A DNA stretch of 42,132 nucleotides from Candidatus Zhuqueibacterota bacterium (GTDB taxonomy: Bacteria; Zhuqueibacterota; Zhuqueibacteria; Oceanimicrobiales; Oceanimicrobiaceae): the NCBI GenBank assembly GCA_029262035.1, contig JAJDAE010000028.1, forward strand, positions 1 to 42,132. Reading direction: 5' to 3'. Shown piece after piece: positions 1,719 to 36,493 of the stretch (its first letter is position 1; the number at the start of each line of letters is the position of its first letter). Made by a program: the position numbers and the translations under genes. A model generated the notes under the pieces. It saw only the letters and a program-made list of their open reading frames with translations. It had not been told where the DNA came from and made no database searches.

Positions 1719-2750
1719 TTAAGCTGTGGATTTGTAATGCACATCCGGCAGAGAACGCAGTTCGGCTGCTTTTTCATCAGGGGATGTGTCACTTAAAAAA
1801 TTTCCACCTCCTATTTCGGGGCCTGCGAGATACTTCAACAGATTTGGTTTTCGCAGCGGTGGATGAAATTCGATATGAAAATGGAATCCACTATAGTCGC
1901 CCCCGTCGGTCGGGGCTTGGTGCAATGGCATGACATAGGGAAAAGGCATCTGCCACAAATTATCGAATTTTACGAGAACCTGTTTGAGAATTTTTGCAAA
2001 GTCGCGAAGCTCATCATCAGATAAATTGGCCAAGCTAGCACAAGTTGTTTTCGGAGCGACAAAAATTTCATAAGCATACCTGGCAAAATAAGGTATGAAC
2101 GCGATTGCAGAGTCATTTTCACAAATCACACGCTTGGCGTCCTCTTTTTCTGCAGCGATTATATCCCGAAACAAAATTCTACCGGTTTCAGCCAAATAAT
2201 TCTGACTTACCCGAGCCTCCGTCGCAATATGTTTGAAAACAAAATTTGTTGCGTAAATCTGACAGTGCGGATGAGGATTTGAAACGCCCACCACTTTCCC
2301 GCGATTTTCAAAGATTAAAACATGCGAAATTTTCGGATAGTTGCCCAATTCGATATATTGCTGCCGCCATGTACGAACGAGTGTTTCCACCTCATGGTCA
2401 TCAAGTTCAGCGAGAGAAAGATTGTGTTTCGGACTATAACAAACAACACGGGCAACGCCATATGCTGGTTTGTTGCGATTAACGTCTCCAGGAGCTGGTT
2501 CTAGTTCACGATTGACATCCTGCGCAACGCACGGCAAATCATTGTCAAAGACGAAAACCTGTTCATAGTTAGGATTCTGGTTTCCACCGATGCGTGTATT
2601 GCCCGGACACAAATAGCAGTCCGGGTCAAAATCTGCAATTTCTTCAGAGCTCGAGGATGCCATCTCACCCGTCCATGGCCTATCCTGGCGATGGGTCGCT
2701 ACAATAACCCACTCCTCGCGCAACGGGTGCCATCTTTGTTCCCAGACCAA
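1719..2750 (-). CDS. galT: Galactose-1-phosphate uridylyltransferase family (GalT)
   Basis: The family transfers UMP from UDP-glucose to a sugar 1-phosphate through a uridylylated histidine. Visible residues are the zinc pair C45-x-x-C48, H109 (PKHN), and the active-site HPH at 160-162 in [11 protein letters not shown], where H162 is the nucleophile. The C-terminal half carries [11 protein letters not shown], typical of the family, and 343 residues is a normal length. It starts at TTG (2750) with an AGGGAG ribosome site that overlaps the stop of the upstream gene (10-base gap), so the two are probably translationally coupled. Placed directly before an arabinokinase-like kinase, it may act on arabinose 1-phosphate instead of, or as well as, galactose 1-phosphate. 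The family call is firm; the acceptor sugar is open. Confidence 0.9.
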
Positions 2751-2760
2751 AGAAATCTCC

Positions 2761-5067
2761 CTAAATCTTCCACATTATACTGTCATCTATTCTCGGCTCT
2801 ACCTGCCGATACTTTTCCATCAGGTCAATTTTTCGCTGCACGAGCTCACCCAAATTCTCTCCATAAATATAGCTCGTCTCACCGGATTTTGATACCACCA
2901 TGAAATTGACTTCGCTGGATTCCCACAATTCAAGCAAATCTTTGGCATTCTGAATCTCGCTGGACATCATTTCATCAAGGTAATCTCGTCTGGATTTTTT
3001 TTGCTCATCCGATTCTGCTGCCAGATAACCATACACTCCTGCTACCCAACCAGCCACACTACGCTGTGTAATTGTCCAGCAACGTAAAGCTCGAAGGCGA
3101 TCTCTTTGGTCTATAAAAACCTCCCGAGCCCCGTCTGAAGTGGTAGAATCTTTAATTGCGTTCCCAGCCAATTCTATTGCAGAATTGAGTTTGCCCAAAA
3201 CATTCTCATCAACACGCTCCACATATTTCTCGCCATATTCTTGAGTTATCAAATCAAAAAGCACATCTCTACCCAAATCCACGAGATTGGTATTATTTGT
3301 TGTGCTCACCATGTAGTCCTCATAATATCTGCGGTCAGTTTCCGGGACAGCATGCAAATCGGGTATGATGGGGCGCACCCAAACACGTAACCAGACAAAA
3401 CCAAAAACTGAATATAATGGCATTGGTGGCAACCATCGCATAGCTTCTTCAGCCTGTTTCCAAACCTCCACAAGCCGGTCTGCACTCGACTCGCCAACCC
3501 AATCCACCGCTTTGCCCTTGATGAATTTTGTGATGTCGGTTTTCGGATCGAGAGAAAAAGCCCTGAAAACTTCCTGATTGATATGATAAGGGGCAAGTGC
3601 GGATGGCGTAAATCCACCTAAATTCGCAGCATGTTCAACGCCGTTGTCAACCATGGCCTGCAACTTTTGATGCAAAAGTCCGGGAAAAGGAATGCCAACC
3701 AGGGGCTCCAGATTATAGCCATTTCCATGAGAATAAATGAGGTGTGAATTCACTCCTTGCTCCTGGTGCTGCCGGATCATTTTATTTTCCTGTGGTTCCA
3801 TGTGAATGTGTTGGATGCTTCCGGCCACTCCGGCAATATCAGGATATTTGTCATGATGATAAGGCAGATCGTAACCGCGAACCAGCAAGGAAGGAACTTC
3901 GATATCCAGACGATCTTCAAGATGCTTCATGATTTCATCATGCTCAACCTTAAAGGGTTCAAGGCGAAGTGTCACATGAAAATCAGGATTGATATCAGAA
4001 GCGGCATCCCGAAGAATTTTCATGAAATGAACAATATTTTTCCCGGCAACCTCAGCAATCTGTTCATGAGTACGCCATTCGCGGATCAAATACGGCCCGC
4101 CGTTTCGGCCAACATAAAGTGAGCTGGTATATTCAAATCCGGCGCCGCTATCGTTGCTCCAAACACTCATGTAAGCCAAGTCCGGAACTTCATGCAATAT
4201 CTTTTGCAGCATTTCCCGGTAATGGTCTTGCACCATCGGATGAGAGTGCGTTAATGTATATCGAGGTAATCGGCTGCGAAATGGATGATCCACCCTGGCA
4301 CCGCGTAGTGTCGGATATTTTTGCAATAATTTTTCGGGAACAGTGCGCGGCTCAAAGCAAAGAATACCCGGTTCAAGACCATATTTGCGGCCAAGTTCTG
4401 CGTATCTTTTCAGGAGCGTTAAATTCGCCGTTAAGTAGTCGTTTGGATAAATACCTTTATTCAAATCACTATAAACATATTGATCTAATCCAAGACAATA
4501 GGAATAAAACTGCGAGTAAAATTCACCGGGAATGGCCTCTTCGTAAGGCACCGGCATTGCTAATCCATTCACCTCAATATGGGTATAGCCTGCTCTTGCC
4601 AGTTCTTTGATGTGTTCTTCGGGATTAAAATTTCGGGCGGTTCGCCAGGTTTGAGTCAGCAAATAGTCAAACAAAGGACGGTGCCACCGGAATGCCGTGG
4701 TTTGGTACGAACCATTTTCAAAATCAGCGGCCGGCAGCTTACTCCACTCTTCGAGCAAACGAGTTGTAAAAGCATATAATACCGATGAATGTGAAACAAT
4801 TAATTCCCCGGCACCATCCTGGCCTATTCGGAAATAAGTCCAGTTTTTATCAGAAGGGGCGCCACTTTCGATCCCATCAATTTCAAAATCTGCATTACTG
4901 CAAACAGCTACTTTAAATATTCCTGAAGATTCAGAAAGCGAGTTCCTCGTACTGATGTCGATATTCAAAGTCTTCTGGATTTCACCGGCGCTTGTTTCTT
5001 CTACGGGTAAAGGTTTTACCGGAATCTGAATTGTTTTAATTTTCTGCAATGCATCTAAAACTGTCAT
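2761..5067 (-). CDS. Large cytoplasmic glycoside hydrolase-like protein (GH67/GH20-type layout)
   Basis: I cannot name the exact family. The 768-residue protein has no signal peptide or membrane segment. An N-terminal alpha/beta domain of about 120 residues leads into what looks like a TIM barrel starting near residue 130 ([18 protein letters not shown], then [20 protein letters not shown]). The barrel has acidic and aromatic strand-end motifs such as [15 protein letters not shown] and [10 protein letters not shown]. The last 200 residues are helical. This arrangement resembles alpha-glucuronidases (GH67) and GH20 enzymes, which also carry a small N-terminal domain before the barrel. AGGAG lies 6 bases before the ATG. 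It overlaps the galT ribosome site and follows a DapA-family gene. A role on uronic-acid- or arabinose-bearing oligosaccharides taken into the cell is inference. Confidence 0.5.
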
Positions 5068-23199: not shown

Positions 23200-24189
23200 A
23201 TGCAAAACAAAAAATACTTAACAGCATTTATCATCGTCGTGGTTATGCTAACGACGACGATGGGCTTTGCTCAAAAACCTGGGCTCACCGGAGCTTCATT
23301 TTTGAAGATTGCGGTTGGTGCTCGTCATACCGCCCTGGGTTCCGCCGTGACAACGGTTGCCGGCGATCCAACAATGATGTTTTGGAACCCGGCGGGCATC
23401 TATTCTGAAAAAACCAATATTTCTTTTAGCCATAATGATTGGTTAGTAGCCATGACTCATGACGCACTCGCTGCCACTTTCTATCTTGATGGCATCGGCA
23501 CCATTGGCGCCGGTATTATCTATCTTGGCAAGAGTGACATTACTGCGAACCGAGACATCGCTCCGACCCCTGGCACTGCATCTCAACAAGCAGATCAGGC
23601 AACTGGAGCTACTTATGACTTCTATGATTTGGCTGTAAACCTTTCCATATCCCGGAAATTTACAGACAAGTTAACGCTTGGCGCCAGCATCAAATTGATC
23701 CGTGAAAAGATCGACGATCTTGATGCCAGTGCGATCGCGGGTGATTTCGGGGTTATTTACAATTCAGGTTGGAGAAATCTGACATTCGGCGCTCGCTTGA
23801 CCAACCTTGGCGGCGACCTTGAATACTTTCAATTTGGTGCGCCGATTCCCCTGACCTTTTCAATTGGTGCTTCCTTTGGTATAGCAAATGAAAAGGACAA
23901 TAGACTTACCGCATATATCGATGCAACCAAGCCGCAAGACAATGAGCAGTCCTATTTCGGTGGCTTGGAATGGGAAATATTAGAGAAACTTACTTTACGT
24001 GGAGGCTATAAATTTGGTCTTTCCGGAACAGAAGATTCCTTTAATATCGAGAATACCGATGAAGGCGCTTCATTCGGTGGCGGACTTGTGATCCCCTGGA
24101 GCAGTGCAGATATGAGTATAGACTATGCCTTTACAGACTTTGGTCTACTCGACGATACGCATAGATTCTCTTTCACAGTATCATTCTGA
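23200..24189 (+). CDS. PorV/PorQ family outer-membrane protein
   Basis: A FadL-like beta-barrel. The signal peptide ends at about residue 24 (TTMGFAQ). The mature start shows the family signature GASFLKIAVGARHTALGSAVTTVAGDPTMMFWNPAGI. Later come repeated beta-strand motifs (LGASIKLIREKI, TFGARLTNLGGDLEY, LTLRGGYKFGLSG), ending in HRFSFTVSF. In T9SS bacteria PorV shuttles sorted cargo, and in FCB genomes such proteins are often encoded just after a TonB receptor and a cargo with a sorting tail, as here. 329 residues is the common size. The ribosome site is GAGGAG. Other T9SS core genes (porT, sov) are not in the window. Confidence 0.85.
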   Translation: MQNKKYLTAFIIVVVMLTTTMGFAQKPGLTGASFLKIAVGARHTALGSAVTTVAGDPTMMFWNPAGIYSEKTNISFSHNDWLVAMTHDALAATFYLDGIGTIGAGIIYLGKSDITANRDIAPTPGTASQQADQATGATYDFYDLAVNLSISRKFTDKLTLGASIKLIREKIDDLDASAIAGDFGVIYNSGWRNLTFGARLTNLGGDLEYFQFGAPIPLTFSIGASFGIANEKDNRLTAYIDATKPQDNEQSYFGGLEWEILEKLTLRGGYKFGLSGTEDSFNIENTDEGASFGGGLVIPWSSADMSIDYAFTDFGLLDDTHRFSFTVSF

Positions 24190-24288: not shown

Positions 24289-26181
24289 ATGAAACTCCTT
24301 TTCAGAAACAAGGCATACCATCACATAGCTAATATATTAACAACTCTCTTTCTATTTTTCTCATTCCCGTTACTCTTTTCTAATTCAATTTCTGCGCAAA
24401 CCTTTAAATTACAACCCAATCAGACAGGTCTTTCAAATGCCTACTATGGAAATGGCGTTGCTGCAGCCGATTACAATAACGACGGCCACATTGATATTTA
24501 CTTCGTGTCCAGCGATCCCAGACACCCATCCCACCCTGGCTCAGCTAATTCACTTTTCAAAAATAATGGAGACGGCACCTTTACAAATGCTGCCAAAGAG
24601 GCCGGCATAGAGGGCATTATCGATACCACAGCCAGTCCTCAAAATCAATTGGTTGAAAATTTCGGTGCATCGTGGGGAGATTTTGACAATGACGGCGATG
24701 TTGATTTGTATTTGAGCAACAAAGGAGTTGATGAACTGTATGAGAATTTAGGAGATGGAACTTTCAGAAATATCACACAAAGTGCCGGCCTTGATTTATT
24801 GATTAGGGACAGTGTCAACGCTGTTTGGTTTGATTTGGATAAAGATGGCAATCTCGATCTTTATGTTTGCGGCTACGGGAAACACGGCTTACATGCTAGC
24901 AGCGACAATATAATGTACCGCAACAACGGCGATGGCACATTCACTGATGTTACCGCCGTCACACGGCTGGGCGAACCCGGCTTTACCTACACGGCATTAA
25001 TATTAGATGCCAATATGGACGACTGGCCGGATATTTATTGTGTGAACGATTTTGGCCGCAACGTCTTTTATTTAAACAACAGCGATGGCACCTTTCATGA
25101 GGCTACAAAAGAATACGGATTGGAAAATGATGGCCATGGCATGGGCGCCGCCATTGGGGATTACAATAATGATGGCCTTTTCGATATTTACTATACCAAT
25201 ATTGGCGATGATATTAACCTGGAGTGGAGTCCACTGGTCCGTCACACAGCATCCGGTATTTATGAGGACGTTAGCCGGAAGTCCGGAACTGCAATTACAC
25301 ACTGGGCCTGGGGTTGTGAATTCCTTGATTTCGATTTAGATGGAGACCTCGATCTTTATGTCGCTAATGGATTTTTTGGAGAAAACTATGGCAACCTTCT
25401 TTATCGAAACAATGACGATGGTACATTTGAGGATATCAGCGCGCTGAGCGGCGCCAACCATCAACCGGAAGCCCGGGGGTTATGTGTAGCCGATTTTAAC
25501 AACGATGGCCGGCTTGACATGGTGGTAGCAAACTTGAGGACCACTGCAAATTTGTATATAAACACAACACGTAATGGGAATTATTTAAAATTAAACCTAG
25601 TTGGAACTCAAAGCAATCGCGATGGCCGGGGAGCCGTAGTTAGCATTACTGCAAGTGACAGGACTCTTCATAGAACTAACGACGGTATTGAGTTACATGG
25701 ACAGTCGAAGGTACCTGTCCATTTTGGTTTGGGTAATGAAACGATTGTAGATATTAAGGTGAAGTGGCCATCCGGCATTGAACAAGAATTTTTCACTGTG
25801 TCCGCAGCAAATCAGTCACTCACGATTACCGAAGGCATGGGTATGGAAAAGACCATCATCTCAGCTGTTGTGAAAAATGATGGCCCTGTACCAGACGAAT
25901 TTTCTTTGCTAGATAACTATCCAAACCCTATACTCAATAGCACCAAACTTCGTTTTCAGTGCGCTTTTTCAGCGCGTATTAAGATTGAAATTTACAATTT
26001 AAATAATCATCTTATTGCCACTCCGGTTGAGGGATATTTTAGAGCGGGTGAACATGGCATAGCCTGGGATGGCGCCGACAAAAATGGGACCCCCCTCTCT
26101 TCCGGAATCTATATTCTAAAATTCTCGAGCGGAAACTTTGTAGCACAAAAAAAATTAATTAAATTGGACAACTTTCATTAA
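24289..26181 (+). CDS. Secreted CRTAC1-type beta-propeller with ASPIC/UnbV domain and sorting tail (copy 1)
   Basis: The signal peptide ends near residue 36 (NSISAQ). Seven FG-GAP/VCBS blades each carry a calcium loop of the form DxNxDGxxDIY (first DYNNDGHIDIY, last DFNNDGRLDMV), which suggests a seven-bladed propeller over residues 45-430. An ASPIC/UnbV domain follows at about 440-520 (NRDGRGAVVSITA, HFGLGNE, VKWPSGIEQEF). A T9SS/FlgD-type tail closes the protein (LLDNYPNPILN, GIAWDGADKNGTPLSSGIYILKF). It probably sits on the cell surface. The ligand is unknown; related proteins are seen as adhesive or enzyme-associated. The next gene is a close paralogue. The ribosome site is weak, and the gene follows the hairpin that seems to close the receptor transcript. 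Confidence 0.85.
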   Translation: MKLLFRNKAYHHIANILTTLFLFFSFPLLFSNSISAQTFKLQPNQTGLSNAYYGNGVAAADYNNDGHIDIYFVSSDPRHPSHPGSANSLFKNNGDGTFTNAAKEAGIEGIIDTTASPQNQLVENFGASWGDFDNDGDVDLYLSNKGVDELYENLGDGTFRNITQSAGLDLLIRDSVNAVWFDLDKDGNLDLYVCGYGKHGLHASSDNIMYRNNGDGTFTDVTAVTRLGEPGFTYTALILDANMDDWPDIYCVNDFGRNVFYLNNSDGTFHEATKEYGLENDGHGMGAAIGDYNNDGLFDIYYTNIGDDINLEWSPLVRHTASGIYEDVSRKSGTAITHWAWGCEFLDFDLDGDLDLYVANGFFGENYGNLLYRNNDDGTFEDISALSGANHQPEARGLCVADFNNDGRLDMVVANLRTTANLYINTTRNGNYLKLNLVGTQSNRDGRGAVVSITASDRTLHRTNDGIELHGQSKVPVHFGLGNETIVDIKVKWPSGIEQEFFTVSAANQSLTITEGMGMEKTIISAVVKNDGPVPDEFSLLDNYPNPILNSTKLRFQCAFSARIKIEIYNLNNHLIATPVEGYFRAGEHGIAWDGADKNGTPLSSGIYILKFSSGNFVAQKKLIKLDNFH

Positions 26182-26239: not shown

Positions 26240-28078
26240 ATGAAAAAAATTTGCTCGGCCTTAATACTGAATTTATCCATTTTCTTACTTATATCCACGT
26301 CATCATTTGCACAGCCATTTCAACTAAAAACTCTGCAGGTCGGCTTGGAATATGCCTTCTATGGCAATGGTGTTGCCGCCGCCGATTATGACAATGACGG
26401 ATTTATTGATATTTATTTTGTGTCCAGAGCTCCCAACTCCTCTTCCCACCCTGGCTCACCTAATTCACTTTTCAAAAATAATGGAGACGGCACCTTTACC
26501 AATGTTGCTAAAAATGCTGGCGTAGAGGGTATCATCGATACCACAACCATTCCGCAAAATAACTTGGTTGAAAATTTCGGTGCTTCGTGGGGAGACTTTA
26601 ACAATGACGGTGATGTCGATTTGTATCTGACCAATAAAGGGGTTGACGAACTTTATGAAAACTTAGGGGATGGTACTTTCAGGAATATCACACACAGTGC
26701 CGGGCTGGATTTATTAATACGCGACAGTTCCACTGCAGCTTGGTTCGATCTGGACAAAGATGGTGATCTCGACCTTTATGTTAGTAGCTACGGTGAACAC
26801 GGCTTAACTGCCAGCAGCGACAATGTCATGTATCGTAACAATGGAGACGGCACATTCACGGACATTACAACTATCACGGGCCTGGGCGAATCCGGAAATA
26901 CTTACGTGACAATGATATTGGACGCCAATATGGACGGCTGGCCGGATATTTATTGCGTGAATGACTTTGGTGATAACTATTTTTATCTAAACAGAACCGA
27001 TGGCACCTTTCGGGAAGCCACGCAGGAATACGGGTTAACGAACAACGGTCACGGTATGGGAGTCACCTTGGGAGATTACGACAATGATGGTCTCTTTGAT
27101 ATTTACCATACTAATATTGCAGACGACCTTAACGGAGAGTGGAGTCCCCTTTTCCGCCACACAGGCTCCGGAAGTTTTCAGGACGTTACGCAGCAGACCG
27201 GAACAGGAATAACAAACTGGGCCTGGGGCTGCGAATTTTTTGATTTTGACTTAGACGGCGACCTTGATCTTTATGTAGCCAATGGTATTTTTGGAAACGC
27301 ATTTCACAACCTGCTTTTTAGAAACAATGGTAATGGTACCTTCGAAGATTTTAGCGAACAGAGTGGTGCTAACGGCCAGGCAGAAGCTCGAGGATTATGC
27401 GTTGCGGACTTTGATAATGATGGTCGGCTTGATATAGTGGTGGCAAATTTGAAAACCGCTGCATATTTATATCAAAATGCAACACAAGATGGCAATTACT
27501 TGAAAATCAATTTAATAGGAACACACAGTAATCGGGATGGCCGTGGGGCCGTAGTTAGAATTACGGTCGACAATAAGACTTACCACAGACCAAACGATGG
27601 CATTGAGTTTTTTGGACAGTCGAAAACACCAATTCATTTTGGCTTAGGCAGTGCGCAGACTGTGCAGAATATCAAAGTAGAATGGCCATCCGGAATACAA
27701 GAAGAATTTCAGAACATACCAGCAAACCAAACAATAACGATAAAAGAGAATTTGGGTATTGTAACCGGGATAAAAATTAAAAACAGCACACCGCCAAAAG
27801 GTTTCGCCTTACTGAATAATTATCCCAATCCATTAAACAATCGCACCCATATCCTATTCAGGGCGGGTGCATCAGCCCATATTAAAATTGAAATATATGA
27901 TATATTAGGCCGTCTCGTTGCTATTCCGGTACTGGCTCGCTTTGCGGCCGGGGATCATTCTATATCTTGGAACGGAACTGACAGAAATGGTCAACCTCTT
28001 CCCTCGGGGATATACATACAAAAATTTTCAAGTGGTCATTTTATAACCTATCGCAAGTTAACAGTGCTGAAGCAATGA
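26240..28078 (+). CDS. Secreted CRTAC1-type beta-propeller with ASPIC/UnbV domain and sorting tail (copy 2)
   Basis: This paralogue of the preceding gene has the same order: signal peptide (to SSFAQ, about residue 24), seven calcium-loop blades (first DYDNDGFIDIY, last DFDNDGRLDIV), ASPIC/UnbV domain (NRDGRGAVVRITV, HFGLGSA, VEWPSGIQEEF) and sorting tail (LLNNYPNPLNN, SISWNGTDRNGQPLPSGIYIQKF). Many stretches are nearly identical to copy 1 at protein and DNA level, for example NLVENFGASWGDF and DELYENLGDGTFRNIT. It starts 58 bases after copy 1. The differences cluster in loop residues, which could change ligand preference. Function unknown beyond surface location. Confidence 0.85.
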   Translation: MKKICSALILNLSIFLLISTSSFAQPFQLKTLQVGLEYAFYGNGVAAADYDNDGFIDIYFVSRAPNSSSHPGSPNSLFKNNGDGTFTNVAKNAGVEGIIDTTTIPQNNLVENFGASWGDFNNDGDVDLYLTNKGVDELYENLGDGTFRNITHSAGLDLLIRDSSTAAWFDLDKDGDLDLYVSSYGEHGLTASSDNVMYRNNGDGTFTDITTITGLGESGNTYVTMILDANMDGWPDIYCVNDFGDNYFYLNRTDGTFREATQEYGLTNNGHGMGVTLGDYDNDGLFDIYHTNIADDLNGEWSPLFRHTGSGSFQDVTQQTGTGITNWAWGCEFFDFDLDGDLDLYVANGIFGNAFHNLLFRNNGNGTFEDFSEQSGANGQAEARGLCVADFDNDGRLDIVVANLKTAAYLYQNATQDGNYLKINLIGTHSNRDGRGAVVRITVDNKTYHRPNDGIEFFGQSKTPIHFGLGSAQTVQNIKVEWPSGIQEEFQNIPANQTITIKENLGIVTGIKIKNSTPPKGFALLNNYPNPLNNRTHILFRAGASAHIKIEIYDILGRLVAIPVLARFAAGDHSISWNGTDRNGQPLPSGIYIQKFSSGHFITYRKLTVLKQ

Positions 28079-28424
28079 AGCCATGTCTTCAACCCGAAAA
28101 AATGTTCAGTCTAGGTGCGAGGTCTGCGCTGTATGAATTCAACTATTTAAAATGATTTTTCTTACCCTTATGTTTTTTTTGAACTTGTTGATTATTTGTC
28201 TTTTAATCTAATTTTATTTAAATCGAACCAAAGTTGATGACTCTTTGGTTTCCTATGGTTCTAACAGTAGTACATATATAGATTATCATTACAATTAATA
28301 ACTTAATCCGTTAATATATTTGATTGTAAGATAATCACTTCTCATTCAGATTCATGATAAATTGGCATGGACAACACAGGTATCGTCCATGCCGAAGACA
28401 CCAAACTCTTGGGAGGTAAACCGC
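28079..28424. promoter_or_regulatory. 346-base AT-rich gap before the cytochrome operon
   Basis: No gene was seen. It is very AT-rich, most strongly at 28140-28225 and 28260-28335, and probably carries the promoter of the cytochrome set. One inverted repeat, AACCAAAG (28226-28233) with CTTTGGTT (28243-28250) around 9 bases, is the only clear structure. It has no U-run and could be an operator. An in-frame ATG at 28362 exists but lacks a ribosome site. Confidence 0.45.
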
Positions 28425-30509
28425 ATGAATAACCTACAGACACAGGAAACCAAGGCCAGGGAATGGCAGCATAAGCTACTCTATTTCGTTTCAGGATTTT
28501 TACTTTTTGAAACCTTGACAGGGTTGTCTATTTACTTATTGCCCTTCAATGTTTCAAATCAGATTACGGTGTTGCTGCATACGGTAGTGGGTCTAATATT
28601 TATCATTCCCTATGTCTGGTATCAAATTCGTCATTGGCTCATCTACCGTGCCGCGACCATGAACCACATCAAGCTCACGGGATACCTTGCCATGGCGATC
28701 ACCATTGTGGCTTCCGTTTCCGGGCTACTTCTTACTTATCAATCTTTTTTTCAAACCAGAATTAACTACACGTGGGATCTGATTCACATCCTCTCCACGT
28801 TTGCATTGATCGCTTTTTTGGTTCCGCACCTTGCTGTTATTGTAATTCGCAATATCAAAGCAGGCAAGCTCGAAACACTGGCACCGGTGACCTCGGCTCA
28901 AAGGCGTTTTGGTTTCAATAGTTTGTTGATCGTTGTTTTTCTATTTGTCGCTGTCGGCCTGTTGGCTTATGCTTACGAACCTGTTCAGTTAGTAAATGAA
29001 CTTCCACAAGATTACAGTTACCTGTATGGACCGGAGCGCCCGTTCGCCCCAAGTTTAGCCAATACCAGCACCAATGGAGCCTTTGATTCGCGATCCCTGA
29101 GCGGGTCAGAGAGTTGTGGTACCTCCGGATGCCACCAACAAATTTATCAGGAATGGCAGGTCAGTGCCCATCGCTACTCGGCAATGGATCCGGCGTTTCA
29201 GGCTGTACAAAAAGTAATGGCTGAACAGAATGGACCGGAGTCGACTCGATATTGTGGCGGTTGCCACGATCCGATTTCACTCTTTTCCGGCACAAAGAAT
29301 ATTTTCACTGAAGACCTCACCAATCTCGCAGGCTATCAAGAGGGAATCTCCTGCATTGCCTGCCATGCGATTAAGGAAACAGACATCAAAGGCAACGCAA
29401 ATTATGTGATGACTCAACCGAAACGATACATGTTTGAATTAAATAAAAGCAAACCGGCTCGTCTGATCAGTGATTTTTTAATACGCGCCTACCCGCGTTA
29501 TCATGTTGAGAGTCTCCAACATCGCATGTTCAAGAGTCCGGAGTTCTGTGCGGCTTGCCATAAGCAATTCATCGATCAAGAAGTCAATAAAGTCGGCTGG
29601 GTGCAATTACAAAATCAATATGATAATTGGCGCAAAAGTCAATGGAATCATCCCGGGGATCCGACCAAAACCATTCAGTGCCGAGAATGTCACATGCCTC
29701 TAAGTGAATCGTCTGATCCGGCGAGTGGTGACGACCTGGACTATAACCGCACGACTGGCGATAAAAAACACCGGAGCCACCGTTTTCTGGGAGCCAATCA
29801 GTTTGTCCCCAAATTTTTGAATCTACCTGGAGCGGATGAACATACGGCGTTAACCGAAAAATGGCTGCGCGGTGAATTTGAATTACCTGAGATCGCCGAT
29901 AAATGGCGATCAGGCCCTGCCGTACCTCTTGATCTGGTTGTGCCGGAAAAAATTGTTCCCGGTGAAGAAGTTAAGATTCAAGCCTTTATGAGTAATTCTA
30001 AGGTGGGTCATGATTTCCCGACCGGTCCGCTGGATATTATACAAGCCTGGGTTGAATTGAATGTAACTGATCAGAATGGTAACCAAGTCTATAGTTCTGG
30101 TACAAGGGACGACCGTCATTTCATCGAGGAGGGTTCTTTTATCTTCAAGGCTGAGGCCGTGGACCAATATGGCAATTTGATCGATAGACATAACCTGTGG
30201 GAGATGGTTGGCGTAAGGTTCAAACGCGCCATGTTCCCGGGTTTTTCAGATAAGGCAGAGTTTACTTTCCCCTGCCCCACCAGCATGACGGTCAATAAAT
30301 CCAAGCGTCGTGAAAAAGAAGAATTTCAATTCAAATTGCCGAATAAACCAATTACTGAACTGCGGATCGAGGCAAAGTTGATGTACCGGAAAGTCGATCA
30401 GTTCCTACTCAACTTTCTCTTTGGTGAGGAAGCGGGTGTAACCGCTCCCATCACGGTAATTTCTGAAGATCGAGAAACGATAAAAGTAGAAACGATGGGG
30501 ACCTGGTAA
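28425..30509 (+). CDS. Membrane cytochrome b-like / pentaheme cytochrome c fusion
   Basis: Four hydrophobic helices at about 17-143 carry paired histidines (LLHTVVG H52, IRHW H70, LIHILS H121, VPHL H135), like a di-heme b-type anchor. A fifth helix at about 165-183 leads to a periplasmic part with five c-type heme sites: C231-H237 (CX4CH), C277-H281, C310-H314, C375-H379 and C419-H423. The C-terminal domain has SKVGHDFPTGPLD, a motif known from multiheme cytochromes related to c554. It would pass electrons between quinones and an unknown periplasmic partner. I chose ATG 28425 (694 residues) because GGGAGG lies just upstream; the longer reading from 28362 has none. It leads a compact operon, 4 bases before the CRTAC1 gene. 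Confidence 0.82.
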   Translation: MNNLQTQETKAREWQHKLLYFVSGFLLFETLTGLSIYLLPFNVSNQITVLLHTVVGLIFIIPYVWYQIRHWLIYRAATMNHIKLTGYLAMAITIVASVSGLLLTYQSFFQTRINYTWDLIHILSTFALIAFLVPHLAVIVIRNIKAGKLETLAPVTSAQRRFGFNSLLIVVFLFVAVGLLAYAYEPVQLVNELPQDYSYLYGPERPFAPSLANTSTNGAFDSRSLSGSESCGTSGCHQQIYQEWQVSAHRYSAMDPAFQAVQKVMAEQNGPESTRYCGGCHDPISLFSGTKNIFTEDLTNLAGYQEGISCIACHAIKETDIKGNANYVMTQPKRYMFELNKSKPARLISDFLIRAYPRYHVESLQHRMFKSPEFCAACHKQFIDQEVNKVGWVQLQNQYDNWRKSQWNHPGDPTKTIQCRECHMPLSESSDPASGDDLDYNRTTGDKKHRSHRFLGANQFVPKFLNLPGADEHTALTEKWLRGEFELPEIADKWRSGPAVPLDLVVPEKIVPGEEVKIQAFMSNSKVGHDFPTGPLDIIQAWVELNVTDQNGNQVYSSGTRDDRHFIEEGSFIFKAEAVDQYGNLIDRHNLWEMVGVRFKRAMFPGFSDKAEFTFPCPTSMTVNKSKRREKEEFQFKLPNKPITELRIEAKLMYRKVDQFLLNFLFGEEAGVTAPITVISEDRETIKVETMGTW

Positions 30510-30513
30510 AATA

Positions 30514-32319
30514 ATGCTGAGTAGATTTTCGCGCCGACGGCGACTTATTATTTTTACTACAGGTCTCGGCGTGCTTTTTTTAGGAACAGTATCTCTGACA
30601 ATCTGGTTGCAGTCAGAAAAAAAACCGTATCTCCCAGGGGAAAAGATCGACGGTGTGGTTGCAAGGCTTACCCGCAATCTACCTGACAATTATCCTAAAA
30701 TAACTTTTGTGGATGCCAGCAAAGATGCCGGCATCGAGTTTCGCCATTTTTCAGGCCAACGTAGCTCACAACTCCCTGAGGACATGGGATCCGGAGCTGC
30801 GTGGGGAGATTACGACAACGATGGCTGGCCTGATCTATTCGTCGTCAATCAGGTTGGCCCACTGACCCTTTCTGATGAGGGGATCTCACAATCTCCGGCA
30901 CATTGCGCTCTTTATCACAACAACCGTGATGGCTCTTTTACTGAAGTAAGTGAGCAGGCAAGCGTTGATTTCAGGGGCTGGGGAATGGCTGCTGTTTGGG
31001 GAGATGCGAACAAAGATGGTTGGCTCGATCTTTTTGTAACCAATTATGGAGAGAATATATTTTACCAAAACAATGGCAATGGCACTTTCAGCAACAAGAC
31101 CAAAGAAACAGGTTTGGGAAATTTAAGAGGTTTCTGGGCCGGTGCTTCCTGGGCTGATTTTAACCGCGATGGATTTTTGGACCTGTTCGTTTGCGGTTAT
31201 GTGAAGTATGAAGATCTTAGAGATCTTGGTACCGCCATGCAATATAATGTGGCTACGCCAGCAAGCATTAATCCCTCTACTTTTGCCCCTGAAAGAAATC
31301 TGTTATACCAAAATAATGGCGATGGCACTTTTACAGAAATAGCGATGCGGGTCGGTGTAGCTGGACAAAACGGCAAAAGTCTAAACGCCGCCTGGTGCGA
31401 TTTTGATGATGATGGCTGGCCTGATCTCTATGTAGCAAATGATGTTTCGGATAATGTGTTTTTACGCAATTTGGAGGGAAACGTTTTCGAAGAAATCAGC
31501 CACAAAGCGATGGTAGCCGATTACCGTGGCGCCATGGGCATCGGCATTGGTGACTGGGATCGCGACGAGGATATGGACATGTTTGTCACCCATTGGATCG
31601 CTCAAGAAAACGCGCTTTATACCAACAAATCCGGAGAATTTTCACATAACGATTCCAAGGTGAAAGCGATCAGGTTTATGGATGAAGCCGATCGTTATGG
31701 CCTGGGTCAAATCGCACTGGATTATATCGGCTGGGGGACATCCTTCTTTGACTATGATAACGACGGACGTCTTGACTTATTCGTTGCCAACGGCAGCACG
31801 TTCCAGCAAAAGGAAAATTCGCATCTATTGCTCCCGATGCGGGATTTATTGTTCTGGAATGCCAGTGTGGATGAGGGCTTTTTTGATGTTTCTCTGGTCA
31901 GTGGGAAGATATTTAACACTAAAAAAGTTAGTCGCGGAGCCGCATTTGCTGACTACGACAACGATGGGGATGTTGATATTTTTGTTGTCAATAACGGCGA
32001 ACAATGCATCCTTTTAAAGAACGAAGGGGGCAACCAAAACAACTGGCTAAAAGTCGAGCTAACGGGAGAAAAAAGTAATCCTCAGGCAATCGGGGCTAAG
32101 CTGCGAGTGGTTACTCAAGATGATATTCAAATTAGGCAGGTGGGTGCGCAATGTTCCTATATGTCGCAGAACAGCCTGGTTGAGCATTTTGGCCTGGGAA
32201 GCCAAAGCCAATCTGATACTCTTGAAATAATCTGGCCGAGTGGATTAAAGCAGGTTTTTGAAAATCTTTTAGCCAACCAAACCTTAAGGATCACGGAAGG
32301 TAAAGATATTAAAAAATAA
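30514..32319 (+). CDS. Membrane-anchored CRTAC1-type propeller with ASPIC/UnbV domain
   Basis: One N-terminal helix (residues 11-32, after an Arg-rich start) anchors the protein or acts as an uncleaved signal. Seven calcium-loop blades follow (DYDNDGWPDLF, DANKDGWLDLF, DFNRDGFLDLF, DFDDDGWPDLY, DWDRDEDMDMF, DYDNDGRLDLF, DYDNDGDVDIF), then an ASPIC/UnbV domain (GAKLRVVTQDD, EHFGLGSQ, IIWPSGLKQVF). Unlike the two upstream propellers it has no sorting tail, so it should stay in the periplasm on the inner membrane. Its start is 4 bases after the multiheme cytochrome stop and the TPR gene follows after 6 bases. Cytochrome, propeller and TPR protein therefore probably work together. Its function is unknown. 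Confidence 0.82.
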   Translation: MLSRFSRRRRLIIFTTGLGVLFLGTVSLTIWLQSEKKPYLPGEKIDGVVARLTRNLPDNYPKITFVDASKDAGIEFRHFSGQRSSQLPEDMGSGAAWGDYDNDGWPDLFVVNQVGPLTLSDEGISQSPAHCALYHNNRDGSFTEVSEQASVDFRGWGMAAVWGDANKDGWLDLFVTNYGENIFYQNNGNGTFSNKTKETGLGNLRGFWAGASWADFNRDGFLDLFVCGYVKYEDLRDLGTAMQYNVATPASINPSTFAPERNLLYQNNGDGTFTEIAMRVGVAGQNGKSLNAAWCDFDDDGWPDLYVANDVSDNVFLRNLEGNVFEEISHKAMVADYRGAMGIGIGDWDRDEDMDMFVTHWIAQENALYTNKSGEFSHNDSKVKAIRFMDEADRYGLGQIALDYIGWGTSFFDYDNDGRLDLFVANGSTFQQKENSHLLLPMRDLLFWNASVDEGFFDVSLVSGKIFNTKKVSRGAAFADYDNDGDVDIFVVNNGEQCILLKNEGGNQNNWLKVELTGEKSNPQAIGAKLRVVTQDDIQIRQVGAQCSYMSQNSLVEHFGLGSQSQSDTLEIIWPSGLKQVFENLLANQTLRITEGKDIKK

Positions 32320-32325
32320 CGCAAT

Positions 32326-33198
32326 ATGAAAAAATTACTACCTATTTCAGGCATCACAATTATAATTCTATTCGCAACCATCACTTGGTTTAAAAGCAGA
32401 TCCCCCTCGGTTGATTTGCAGACCGATAATACAGCATTGAGCGAGGAAGATAAAAACAGAACACAACAATTTTGGCAAATCTATCGCCAGGCGGGAGAAC
32501 ATCGCCTGGCAGGTAGGCTGGAAAAGGCCAACGAGAGTTATAAACATGCGCTCCAACTCAAACCAGACCATGAAAACACGTTGTACTACTTTGGAAGCAT
32601 TTCGTTTGCTTTGAGTAAATTCACTCAGGCAGAAAAGGCTTGGAAGCAATTGCTTGTTGTTGATTCCACCAATGCCCGCGCTCACTATCAGCTCGGAAAT
32701 TTATACCTGAACACTGAGCATGAAGAATTCTTTAATATCCAAAAAGCTGAAGCTCAATTTCGCTCGGCCCTCAGAATAAATAAGGAAGAATCCAGTCCGC
32801 ACCTGCGTTTGGGTCATGTGGCATTGATTAATGACAACTTGCAGCTGGCCGGACAGCACTTTGATGCTGTGCTGGGCTCCAACTTTAAAAGTATCGAAGC
32901 CTATTTTTTGAGAGGTTATGTCGCCTGGGAAAAAGGAAATTTTGAAAAAGCTCTATCTATGTTGGGCAATGCCAGAAAGCATTCCAAGCCTGTGCAACCG
33001 ATTAAAGGCGTTCGCGGCGAAGGTGATACTAAACCGGGAGGACTTTTTGAGCAACTGAAGTTGTCAAGACGTAAGTCAATGTTCCACCCTTTTTTCGACG
33101 AAATTTTAAAATTAGACGAATCAAAAATATCACATCCGGTTATGGAAAAGAAATACCAGGAACTGCAATTTTTTCTAAATAAAATAAGGAAAATTTGA
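32326..33198 (+). CDS. Membrane-anchored TPR protein
   Basis: A hydrophobic N-terminus (residues 2-22, LLPISGITIIILFATITWF) is followed by about four to five tetratricopeptide repeats. The clearest are GRLEKANESYKHALQLKPDH, FTQAEKAWKQLLVVDSTN, AEAQFRSALRINKEE and GNFEKALSMLGNARKHS. TPR domains hold protein complexes together. The gene starts 6 bases after the CRTAC1 gene and most likely scaffolds the periplasmic complex of the cytochrome and the propeller. TPR and CRTAC1 genes are often neighbours in other environmental bacteria, as I recall. No enzyme motif is visible. Confidence 0.78.
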   Translation: MKKLLPISGITIIILFATITWFKSRSPSVDLQTDNTALSEEDKNRTQQFWQIYRQAGEHRLAGRLEKANESYKHALQLKPDHENTLYYFGSISFALSKFTQAEKAWKQLLVVDSTNARAHYQLGNLYLNTEHEEFFNIQKAEAQFRSALRINKEESSPHLRLGHVALINDNLQLAGQHFDAVLGSNFKSIEAYFLRGYVAWEKGNFEKALSMLGNARKHSKPVQPIKGVRGEGDTKPGGLFEQLKLSRRKSMFHPFFDEILKLDESKISHPVMEKKYQELQFFLNKIRKI

Positions 33199-34133: not shown

Positions 34134-35018
34134 ATGGGAATTCGCCCATTTGTTGAATCTCAGGATTTGCTCGATCAACCAACCGCCCTTAGAAATCGCT
34201 TAAATGAAGATGGCTATTTATTTTTTAGAAATCTTATCGATCGCGAACCTTTGCAAAATCTTCTTATTGAGATACTTAATATTTGCAAAAAATACGGTTG
34301 GCTATTAGAAGGTTCGGATCTACTTGCCCGGAAAGGCAAGTCCGATGCATATAGTGGATATTTTGAATTTACCGATGTCTACAGCGAGATACAGAAATTA
34401 GAAAACTTCCATCTTCTTGCCAATCATCCCAAAATCATTTCAACTCTTTCTGGTATTTGGGGTGGTCATGTATTCCCTCATCCACGTAATATTGCCCGTA
34501 TTACGCTGCCCGGATCCTCAAAAAAGACGACGCCATCACATCAGGATTATGTCTTTATTCAAGGTAGCCAGGAATTTCATACGGTCTGGTTCCCTCTGAG
34601 TGATTGCCCTAAAGAATTAGGTGGATTGTTGGTTGCACGCAATTCTCATAAAGCTGGCATTCTACCTACTCAAGAAGCTGAAGGGACAGGTGGACTATGT
34701 GCAGTTGTGGACGATGAAGCTCAGGAATGGCTTAGCACTGATTTTCAATTAGGCGATGTTATTATTTTTCATTCCCTAACAGTTCACAAAGCTTATCCCA
34801 ATATTACGGACGAACTTCTACGTGTTTCATGTGACTTTCGTTATCAGGCCATGAATGAGCCTGTGGTGGTGTGGGATACGCTTCGCCCCCACATGCAATT
34901 ACATAGCTGGGAGGAAATTTATTCAGATTGGGCTCGAGATGACCTTAAATATTATTGGCATAAATACAAATTACAGGTAGTTCCAGTCTTGGAACCTGGA
35001 GACGTTCCACCAACTTGA
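34134..35018 (+). CDS. PhyH-family Fe(II)/2-oxoglutarate dioxygenase
   Basis: Phytanoyl-CoA dioxygenase-like enzymes hydroxylate small molecules using iron, oxygen and 2-oxoglutarate. The HxD pair is H136/D138 in TTPSHQDYVF, the distal histidine is H218 in FHSLTVHKAYPN, and R230 in ELLRVSCDFRY is the likely 2-oxoglutarate anchor. The N-terminal LRNRLNEDGYLFFRNLI is the family opening. It has 294 residues and no signal peptide, so it is cytoplasmic. AGGAG precedes the ATG. It lies between the hydrolase-like gene and the GWxTD gene, on the same strand. The substrate is unknown. Confidence 0.82.
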   Translation: MGIRPFVESQDLLDQPTALRNRLNEDGYLFFRNLIDREPLQNLLIEILNICKKYGWLLEGSDLLARKGKSDAYSGYFEFTDVYSEIQKLENFHLLANHPKIISTLSGIWGGHVFPHPRNIARITLPGSSKKTTPSHQDYVFIQGSQEFHTVWFPLSDCPKELGGLLVARNSHKAGILPTQEAEGTGGLCAVVDDEAQEWLSTDFQLGDVIIFHSLTVHKAYPNITDELLRVSCDFRYQAMNEPVVVWDTLRPHMQLHSWEEIYSDWARDDLKYYWHKYKLQVVPVLEPGDVPPT

Positions 35019-35101
35019 AATTAACCAAACCAAAAGCCGGCTTCTGTCTCAGTATGTATCATGACCACAGCGCCCTTTTGCAACAAAGAGGTTTAAGCGA
35101 A

Positions 35102-36493
35102 ATGTTTAGATATTTAAAACTTACTTTCTTTTGTTTGATGCTGCACACTCTGATTTTTCCAGACTTTGTAGCTGGGCAATTGGCTCAACCTCAAAAACCT
35201 TTAAGATTAAGTGTGGATGTTGCCAAATTCCGGGGAGATGTTACTCACACAAAGCTTGAAATTTATCAAAGTATAAACCGTCAGGGGTTGACGTATCAAA
35301 ACAATAACCCAGGCTACATTGCACGATTTAAGCTGGATACGAAAATCATTCAAAAAGACTCCGTTGTTTTTCAAGAAGAAATTGTTGAAACTGATACTGT
35401 TTTTAACAATGATCTTATCGAACCCGGCCAACAGTTTATTTTTACACAACCCTTCTTTTTGAAGCCGGGCCATTATCAAATACTGACAACCCTACAGGAT
35501 ATTAATAACGGCAGCAAATCCTCTAACCGTGTGCCGGTAGAAATTTCAACCTTCCCTGAGGATTCACTTGTGCTAAGTGATATCCAGTTTGCCTCACACA
35601 TTAAGAAAGCTACAGATGTCAACAACCCCTTCGTCAAGAACAATCTGCACGTCATGCCAAATCCCCAATCGCTATATGGTGATGGAATGGAAAATCTCAC
35701 TTTTTATGCAGAATTGTATAATCTCGGTTTTTCCAATGGCTCTGAGGGAACCTATTGCGTCGACTATATCATTGAGAATACTGAAGGTAAAACTCTGAGT
35801 CGCATTCGCGGCAAGCAACGCCCCCAGAGAGGTAAAAATGCAGCAATCTATACTTCCTTCGATCTTTCCACCCTTGAGAGCAATCGATATATTCTCAAGT
35901 TGGATGTAATTGATAACACCTCAAATAGACATACAGATATTTCAAAAACATTCTCAATATTCAGAAAGGCCGATGCTTTAGCGCTCGAAATTGATCAGGA
36001 GCGCAAAGTGTATCGGGAATTTGATGAACCTGCCTTGCAAAACTATTTCGAACAAATTGCTTATATTGCAACCAATGAGGAAAAAAAAGTATTTAAGCAG
36101 TTGGAGTTAAAAGGAAAGAGAGAGTTCATATTCCAATTTTGGCAAACCAGAGATCCTAGCCCTGACACACCGGAAAACGAATTCAAAAATGACTATATCC
36201 AGCGGTTGTTCAAAACTAAAATCAATTTTTCCGTTAGTGAAACTGATGGCTGGAAAACCGATAGGGGGAGAATCTTTTTAATATATGGCCCACCCGATTT
36301 CCTTGATCGGGAACCTGCTTTACTTGATAGAAATGCCCATGAAATTTGGAGCTATGAAACGCTTCAGGGTGTACAAGGCCAGTCTATATTTGTATTTATA
36401 GATTTAGCCGATAACGGCAAATATCGCCTTATCCATTCTGACTATCGTGATGAAATAACTAACCCGGCTTGGGAATCATATCTCTACAAATAA
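35102..36493 (+). CDS. Secreted GWxTD domain-containing protein
   Basis: The C-terminal domain carries the name motif in ETDGWKTDRGRIFLIYGPPDF, followed by EIWSYETLQGVQGQSIFVFID. Upstream is FIFQFWQTRDPSPDTPENEFKNDY, also typical of this domain, which occurs at the C-terminus of exported proteins of Bacteroidota, Acidobacteriota and related groups and has no known activity. The N-terminal 290 residues look like beta-rich Ig-like repeats. ATG 35102 gives a clean signal peptide (MFRYLKLTFFCLMLHTLIF, to about VAGQ) and has AGAGG 10 bases upstream. The longer reading from TTG 35015, overlapping the dioxygenase stop, would bury the signal peptide. It ends the plus-strand set. Confidence 0.75.
   Translation: MFRYLKLTFFCLMLHTLIFPDFVAGQLAQPQKPLRLSVDVAKFRGDVTHTKLEIYQSINRQGLTYQNNNPGYIARFKLDTKIIQKDSVVFQEEIVETDTVFNNDLIEPGQQFIFTQPFFLKPGHYQILTTLQDINNGSKSSNRVPVEISTFPEDSLVLSDIQFASHIKKATDVNNPFVKNNLHVMPNPQSLYGDGMENLTFYAELYNLGFSNGSEGTYCVDYIIENTEGKTLSRIRGKQRPQRGKNAAIYTSFDLSTLESNRYILKLDVIDNTSNRHTDISKTFSIFRKADALALEIDQERKVYREFDEPALQNYFEQIAYIATNEEKKVFKQLELKGKREFIFQFWQTRDPSPDTPENEFKNDYIQRLFKTKINFSVSETDGWKTDRGRIFLIYGPPDFLDREPALLDRNAHEIWSYETLQGVQGQSIFVFIDLADNGKYRLIHSDYRDEITNPAWESYLYK

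Follow-up and report, generated by a model that had tools for sequence, protein, structure and literature searches.

Quinol-driven electron transfer to periplasmic cytochromes is known from CbcL, an inner-membrane bc-type quinone oxidoreductase of Geobacter sulfurreducens which, according to two papers, carries electrons from menaquinol to periplasmic cytochromes (PMC9129911, PMC12307469). A third paper links the fold group of pentaheme cytochrome c552 to ExtKL, to the pentaheme cytochromes (PHC) of cable bacteria and to an archaeal cytochrome nanowire (PMC11976967), and a fourth describes HZS-like alpha/beta-gamma clusters, in which multiheme c proteins with cytochrome c554 domains have a CRTAC1-annotated FG-GAP gene as their neighbour (PMC12758564). 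Here we describe three consecutive genes (28425-33198) in a 42,132-nucleotide stretch of DNA, hereafter the window, from Candidatus Zhuqueibacterota bacterium (GCA_029262035.1, contig JAJDAE010000028.1, forward strand). On balance, we favour reading them as an inner-membrane complex that transfers electrons from quinol to a pentaheme cytochrome c, with a beta-propeller protein and a TPR protein as further subunits.

The first gene is an open frame at 28425-30509 on the forward strand, as are all features described below unless otherwise stated; the coordinates include the stop codon. It encodes a cytochrome b-like/pentaheme c fusion of 694 amino acids (P0001), and a ribosome-binding-like site, GGGAGG (28411-28416), was read 8 nucleotides 5' of its ATG. 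In the encoded chain, five membrane helices with four histidines are followed by one CX4CH and four CX2CH heme sites and then by an immunoglobulin (Ig)-like domain. An earlier note, made from these letters alone, had described one polypeptide joining a histidine-paired membrane part to five c-heme sites, the first with four residues between the cysteines; the open frame, the motifs and the helices confirm that description, and the first site is CGTSGCH at residues 231-237. Shuffling the protein 20,000 times gave a mean of 0.008 heme motifs and a maximum of 2, so that the five observed are far above chance. An AlphaFold model of the chain, built from a 52-sequence alignment (mean predicted local distance difference test, pLDDT, 81.5; predicted template modelling score, pTM, 0.79), begins with five long helices, continues as a helical heme region and ends in a beta domain.

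The five-helix membrane domain covers residues 17-183 (28473-28973). Its helices lie at 17-38, 43-74, 81-109, 115-146 and 150-183 in the model, and hydropathy also indicates five membrane segments. Two candidate heme b ligands, H52 (28578-28580) and H70 (28632-28634), are placed on helix 2, and two, H121 (28785-28787) and H135 (28827-28829), on helix 4; therefore each pair, H52/H121 towards the outer, periplasmic face and H70/H135 towards the inner face, could hold one heme b. We infer from the sequence that the domain binds two hemes b. With the loop bounds chosen, the lysine plus arginine counts are 2 and 3 after helices 2 and 4, and 0, 1 and 0 after helices 1, 3 and 5, which argues that the heme domain lies outside the cytoplasmic membrane. 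When the membrane domain was used by itself as the query, a sequence search of the PDB gave no credible match (best E 0.08).

The heme c sites are CGTSGCH (29115-29135), CGGCH (29253-29267), CIACH (29352-29366), CAACH (29547-29561) and CRECH (29679-29693). They are followed by the Ig-like beta domain (residues 496-692; 29910-30500), recognized from the model and from structural matches. In Pfam, only PF13435 (cytochrome c554 family) was above its cut-off, at 28.9 versus 20.8 bits over residues 235-314. The heme region matched the pentaheme c552 of Thermochromatium tepidum (5ze8) with phmmer (E 1.8e-4) and Foldseek (E 1.2e-10), and VIA-align superposed the model on the same structure over 339 residues covering 223-686 (Z 22.5, root-mean-square deviation 3.6 A). 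As modelled, the c part thus has a c552-type pentaheme fold with an Ig-like domain. The ExtKL equivalog NF040886 was matched at 33.5 bits, short of its cut-off of 250, and weak matches to it were obtained for 49 of 52 family members. The periplasmic part contains six further conserved histidines (H249, H360, H449, H452, H529 and H589), H529 being the invariant histidine of VGHDFPTG, and judged by their number these could supply a second ligand to every c heme. CX2CK is the catalytic heme site of the NrfA nitrite reductase; such a site is not present here, all five c sites ending in CH.

To collect relatives, six short peptide patterns taken from the window protein were matched exactly against species genomes; a heme Cys-His pair is contained in one of the patterns, and the approach favours close relatives. 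The scan yielded 70 loci with a cytochrome relative (37-73% identity over the best segment), and columns were counted on the 59 complete open reading frames (ORFs), leaving out seven loci cut by contig ends and four with stops or frame breaks as read. All four membrane histidines, the ten heme cysteines and the five heme histidines are invariant in the 59 relatives, as are H249, H360, H452, H529 and H589, with H449 kept in 58. The CX4CH form of site 1, whose conservation the earlier note had raised, is likewise found in 58 of the 59, the exception being CX2CH in an Elusimicrobia metagenome-assembled genome (MAG; L101); with partial ORFs included, it is found in 65 of 66 loci where the site is readable. 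A likelihood tree built from 58 loci plus the window, from which L057 was left out because of its overlong frame, groups the window with MAGs of KSB1, the FCB group and Fidelibacterota (100/99 support), with long branches for L101 and L088. By record title the group spans nine phyla (Acidobacteriota, Verrucomicrobiota, Poribacteria, Planctomycetota, Chloroflexota, Krumholzibacteriota, Elusimicrobiota, Pseudomonadota and Fidelibacterota); Acidobacteriota require four changes on the tree and Poribacteria two, which may reflect transfer, paralogy or binning error. Plasmid records gave partial matches only, all below 60% identity (18 records). A decayed cytochrome copy was also observed on the minus strand of L122 (6486-7133, genome G027), which keeps a membrane part of 58% identity, contains two in-frame stops and has lost the greater share of its heme part, intact copies being present elsewhere.

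The cytochrome gene is followed, after a gap of 4 nucleotides, by a gene (30514-32319) for an ASPIC/UnbV FG-GAP beta-propeller protein of 601 amino acids with an N-terminal hydrophobic helix, and this, after 6 nucleotides, by a gene (32326-33198) for a TPR protein of 290 amino acids, recognized by Pfam and carrying an N-terminal hydrophobic segment. Both partner genes had been missed by the earlier note. The propeller protein exceeds the Pfam cut-offs of PF07593 (75.8 versus 23.4 bits) and PF13517 (159.5 versus 26.9 bits), and its model (pLDDT 90.9) best matches the fold of murine CRTAC1 (9etn; E 2e-29, template modelling scores 0.69/0.75). No heme motif was found in either the propeller or the TPR protein, and the propeller has one well conserved cysteine, Cys227, kept in 57 of 61 sequences. 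The coupling of the cytochrome and propeller genes is conserved: in all 66 loci with at least 500 nucleotides downstream, the next gene is an ASPIC/FG-GAP propeller. A script found the propeller frame within 600 nucleotides past the cytochrome in 65 of these, and in the 66th (L093) the propeller ORF (2127-4985) lies at the end of the match (459-2421); of the remaining four loci, three have 1-314 nucleotides downstream and one (L094, 451 nucleotides) has a partial match. Pairwise identities of cytochrome and propeller correlate closely (r = 0.93 over 57 loci and 1596 pairs; none of 2000 permutations as high). Only 13 ASPIC domain matches occur in the window's 5.3 Mb genome, so that the constant adjacency does not follow from abundance. 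The TPR domain and the propeller are matched by one ORF in 46 loci, and the TPR protein has its own gene in the window and in L035, L036, L037 and L047. Two further ASPIC/FG-GAP proteins, paralogues of the operon propeller, are encoded just upstream of the cytochrome (24289-26181 and 26240-28078). Against the propeller of L123 they score 202 and 192 bits and the operon propeller 843 bits; a type IX secretion sorting tail exceeds the Pfam and NCBIfam cut-offs in the second and stays under the Pfam cut-off in the first (23.1 of 27).

The search for wider relatives covered three sets of genomes: 82 from the window's phylum, 7 that contain scan loci, and 119 from the phylum to which the acidobacterial MAG L043 belongs, 30 of the last set matching at E 1e-25. 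The higher-scoring matches gave 58 cytochrome ORFs in 60 stretches, of which 5 were orthologous and 53 were counted as distant relatives. These wider relatives are mostly of 840-1060 amino acids, and TPR in the cytochrome chain itself was above the Pfam cut-off in six of seven longer membrane-bundle relatives scanned and just below it in the seventh. The outer pair H52/H121 is found in 40 of 41 membrane-bundle relatives, the exception (L119) being cut by a contig end, and all four membrane histidines align in 19 of the 41, in a helix alignment that is uncertain, two alignments disagreeing at site 135 in some rows. Relatives seemingly without the inner histidines retain the outer pair and the pentaheme head, and thus the core reaction may need no more than the outer heme. 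The earlier note had named unconserved membrane histidines, and homologues without the membrane part, as grounds against its reading. The histidines are invariant among the orthologues but do not all align in 22 of the 41 longer membrane-bundle relatives; forms without the bundle do exist, two of them (L002 and L004) in the window's own genome, but all are outside the orthologous group.

Among the 53 distant pentaheme relatives, 20 have CX4CH at site 1 and 33 have CX2CH there, and we accordingly reject CX4CH as a functional signature. The layout, the invariant histidines and the loop charges fit a di-heme b domain that feeds a periplasmic pentaheme c domain, and with it the earlier suggestion that such a protein could pass electrons from the quinone pool straight to a periplasmic acceptor; a special role of CX4CH is not supported. 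The inner histidine pair was likewise rejected as an indicator of a propeller partner. Within the window's phylum, the four histidines are kept in all six longer relatives whose stretch includes a propeller gene and not in the 11 whose stretch has none; the pattern failed in the wider sample, where an adjacent propeller gene accompanies 13 of 19 relatives with four histidines, 8 of 22 with not all four and 6 of 12 without a membrane bundle. The cytochrome-propeller pairing therefore recurs across architectures and is exceptionless in the orthologous group only. Individual cases were also observed: L171, L172 and L176 have one predicted N-terminal helix in place of a multi-helix membrane part and an ASPIC propeller gene downstream, and the pentaheme proteins of L165, L169 and L174, also with one predicted N-terminal helix, have an ASPIC propeller gene upstream.

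The flanks of the orthologous loci give a hint at the cytochrome's role. The largest cluster of neighbours (12 loci) is an antisense reading of the operon, and clusters of 9, 9, 4 and 4 loci correspond to RIC, NnrS, Rrf2 and Crp-like (Crp/Fnr-like) genes. NnrS and RIC respond to nitric oxide. Representatives exceed the cut-offs for NnrS (33.8 and 37.1 bits; cut-off 28) and for RIC iron-sulfur repair proteins (219.1 and 230.6 bits; equivalog cut-off 204.7); the Rrf2 proteins exceed their superfamily cut-off and reach 37.6-54.9 bits against the 182 of the NCBIfam for NsrR, so that they are not NsrR. Profiles of these clusters, run over every ORF of at least 90 amino acids in the 70 loci, gave RIC 10, NnrS 9, Rrf2 8 (six above 200 bits) and Crp-like 5. 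At least one RIC, NnrS or strong Rrf2 gene occurs in 16 of the 70 loci, every one of which is titled Acidobacteriota. The genes lie to one side of the operon or the other and at varied distances, NnrS immediately following the propeller in five loci (L073, L076, L077, L087 and L102). In the 60 wider-relative stretches the same profiles found one RIC, in L192, which is an orthologue, one weak Crp and no NnrS or Rrf2 (flank lengths compared, 796 kb versus 490 kb). Among 110 partly hand-picked orthologue neighbours, the commonest Pfam families were hemerythrin (14), ScdA_N (9) and NnrS (8); none of these three was among the 25 families listed for 115 control neighbours and 89 other orthologue neighbours, lists in which single members could hide. 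RIC gave at most two full matches above the cut-off per genome in 20 genomes searched and none above it in 10, which makes proximity by chance unlikely. Additionally, G121, from an unselected draw of Acidobacteriota, has a RIC gene 4 kb from the cytochrome. This acidobacterial neighbourhood hints at nitric-oxide or other nitrogen-oxide chemistry as the setting.

In the mechanism that we propose, the five-helix domain would hold an outer heme b between H52 and H121 and an inner one between H70 and H135; a membrane quinol would be oxidized in this domain, and electrons would pass via heme b to the periplasmic c552-type pentaheme domain, which would deliver them to a periplasmic acceptor. Its two partner proteins, propeller and TPR, would probably act as a platform in the periplasm, to which the acceptor docks or which gives the complex its shape. 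In view of the acidobacterial gene neighbourhood, nitrogen-oxide chemistry is our leading idea for the acceptor, whether as a substrate of the pentaheme domain itself or through another enzyme that the domain feeds, and the complex possibly serves nitrogen-oxide reduction.

Several observations weigh against this proposal. The membrane domain falls short of the Pfam cut-offs of DUF4405 (PF14358; 23.9 versus 26.7 bits) and of prokaryotic cytochrome b561 (PF01292; 16.1 versus 30.1 bits), families matched at E <= 0.1 by 26 and 9 of 34 membrane domains, respectively; the case for heme b binding therefore rests on the placement of the histidines, and no quinone site can be named from the sequence. 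The model was built without hemes and is of low confidence (pLDDT < 50) near residues 293-297, 383-392, 589-599 and 621-639. The correlation between cytochrome and propeller identities owes part of its height to shared species history. A propeller gene on the same strand within 600 nucleotides accompanies 27 of the 53 distant relatives, and 27 of the 50 that have at least 900 nucleotides downstream have it adjacent. No nitric-oxide-type neighbour was found beside the window gene or in the other phyla examined, the RIC gene of the window's genome being on a different contig. Moreover, other quinol oxidase genes of complex-III type, of the cytochrome b (PF00033) and NrfD (PF03916) families, are present in 8 of 8 carrier genomes searched; a replacement for complex III is thus not supported, and the complex would be an additional branch that fills no evident gap. 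Heme-copper oxidase family genes were found in the same 8 of 8, a search made in carriers only.

A tenable, though less probable, alternative is that the pentaheme domain would itself carry out the terminal reduction, with nitric oxide or another nitrogen oxide as substrate and quinol electrons supplied by the membrane domain; it would then be a respiratory or detoxifying enzyme and more than a relay. The identification of the RIC, NnrS, Rrf2 and Crp-like neighbours gave this alternative more weight. In its favour are the 16 acidobacterial loci, the RIC and NnrS representatives that reach their own cut-offs, the NnrS genes directly after the propeller and the RIC gene of G121; a possible catalytic role has been discussed for relatives of this heme fold (PMC11976967), and CRTAC1-annotated genes adjoin the HZS-like multiheme clusters (PMC12758564). 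The lack of a NrfA-type CX2CK site speaks against it, however, as do the six conserved spare histidines, which are enough for five bis-histidine hemes, the failure of the Rrf2 neighbours to qualify as NsrR, the 54 of 70 loci, including the window's clade, without RIC, NnrS or strong Rrf2 neighbours, and the complete absence of RIC from 5 of the 20 carrier-related genomes searched. A bolder claim combines this chemistry with the whole operon: an undescribed and widespread quinol-driven complex that reduces nitrogen oxides, likeliest nitric oxide, made up of a b-type membrane cytochrome with a pentaheme c552 head and an obligate, co-inherited CRTAC1-like/TPR subunit, in MAGs titled to nine phyla. 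We regard this claim as speculative and doubtful.

Electron flow in the reverse direction, with a periplasmic donor reducing the pentaheme domain and both hemes b carrying the electrons inward to a quinone that is reduced close to the inner face, seems unlikely to us. The four histidines would put one heme near each face, as charge-separating inward transfer requires, and the inner pair is never lost in the 59 orthologues; nevertheless, several longer relatives keep the outer pair and appear to be without the inner one, and no recurring periplasmic dehydrogenase family was found among the neighbours scanned. A role outside respiration, in which the cytochrome would serve the propeller or TPR protein and hold a protein of the envelope in a reduced state for assembly or maturation, is quite improbable. 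The strict pairing with one propeller lineage and the retention of Cys227 would suit such a role, but the partner has no heme motif and a single well conserved cysteine, and the pairing is specific to the operon lineage and does not extend to the window's other ASPIC proteins.

A few other features of the window can be mentioned. A hairpin of 13 pairs (28364-28393) lies 31 nucleotides 5' of the cytochrome start in a stretch that is single-copy in the genome, and no counterpart was evident 5' of six relatives examined. A weak PorV-like outer-membrane protein, under the Pfam cut-off, is encoded at 23200-24189, adjoining the sorting-tail proteins. Downstream, at 34134-36493, a PhyH-type dioxygenase gene overlaps the frame of a GWxTD-domain protein by 4 bases.

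If the quinol-to-pentaheme reading is true, an electron outlet linked to quinone is common to many little-studied bacteria, among them Acidobacteriota, Verrucomicrobiota, Poribacteria and KSB1/Fidelibacterota-like lineages, and its proteins are labelled in the family libraries searched only as generic multiheme or TPR proteins. It would also offer a candidate function for bacterial CRTAC1-like propellers, and the compact pair of cytochrome and propeller is a target for expression or deletion. A nitrogen-oxide role, if true, would be relevant to the turnover of NO and N2O in soils.

Compared with the systems described so far, the window protein resembles CbcL in that, judged from sequence and model, one and the same chain contains a membrane domain of b type, with two pairs of histidines, and a multiheme c domain on the periplasmic side; CbcL is a working precedent for the proposed mechanism. 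CbcL has six helices and nine c hemes, whereas the window protein has five of each, a c552 fold, an Ig-like domain and a CRTAC1-like neighbour. With T. tepidum c552, ExtKL and PHC it shares the heme fold (residues 223-686), the five heme sites and the Ig-like domain, but it has a membrane domain, which the available part of PMC11976967 does not mention for those proteins. The partner gene resembles CRTAC1/ASPIC-UnbV in its FG-GAP propeller, its ASPIC domain and the 9etn fold, and differs from CRTAC1 in being bacterial, cytochrome-adjacent, often fused to TPR and equipped with a hydrophobic helix at its N terminus. HZS itself acts on nitric oxide. Unlike the window protein, the HZS-like proteins are homologues of a soluble enzyme, for which the available part of PMC12758564 mentions no b-type membrane domain; if the nitrogen-oxide complex proposed here is true, the two cases together would mean that multiheme enzymes of nitrogen-oxide chemistry repeatedly have a CRTAC1-like propeller as their partner. 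No description of the cytochrome-propeller pairing was found in searches of an open-access full-text library, none of them aimed at NnrS or RIC. As a fused b/multiheme c protein the cytochrome is of a known kind, and what appears new, as far as these searches reach, is the combination of this membrane domain with a c552-type head and a constant CRTAC1-like partner.

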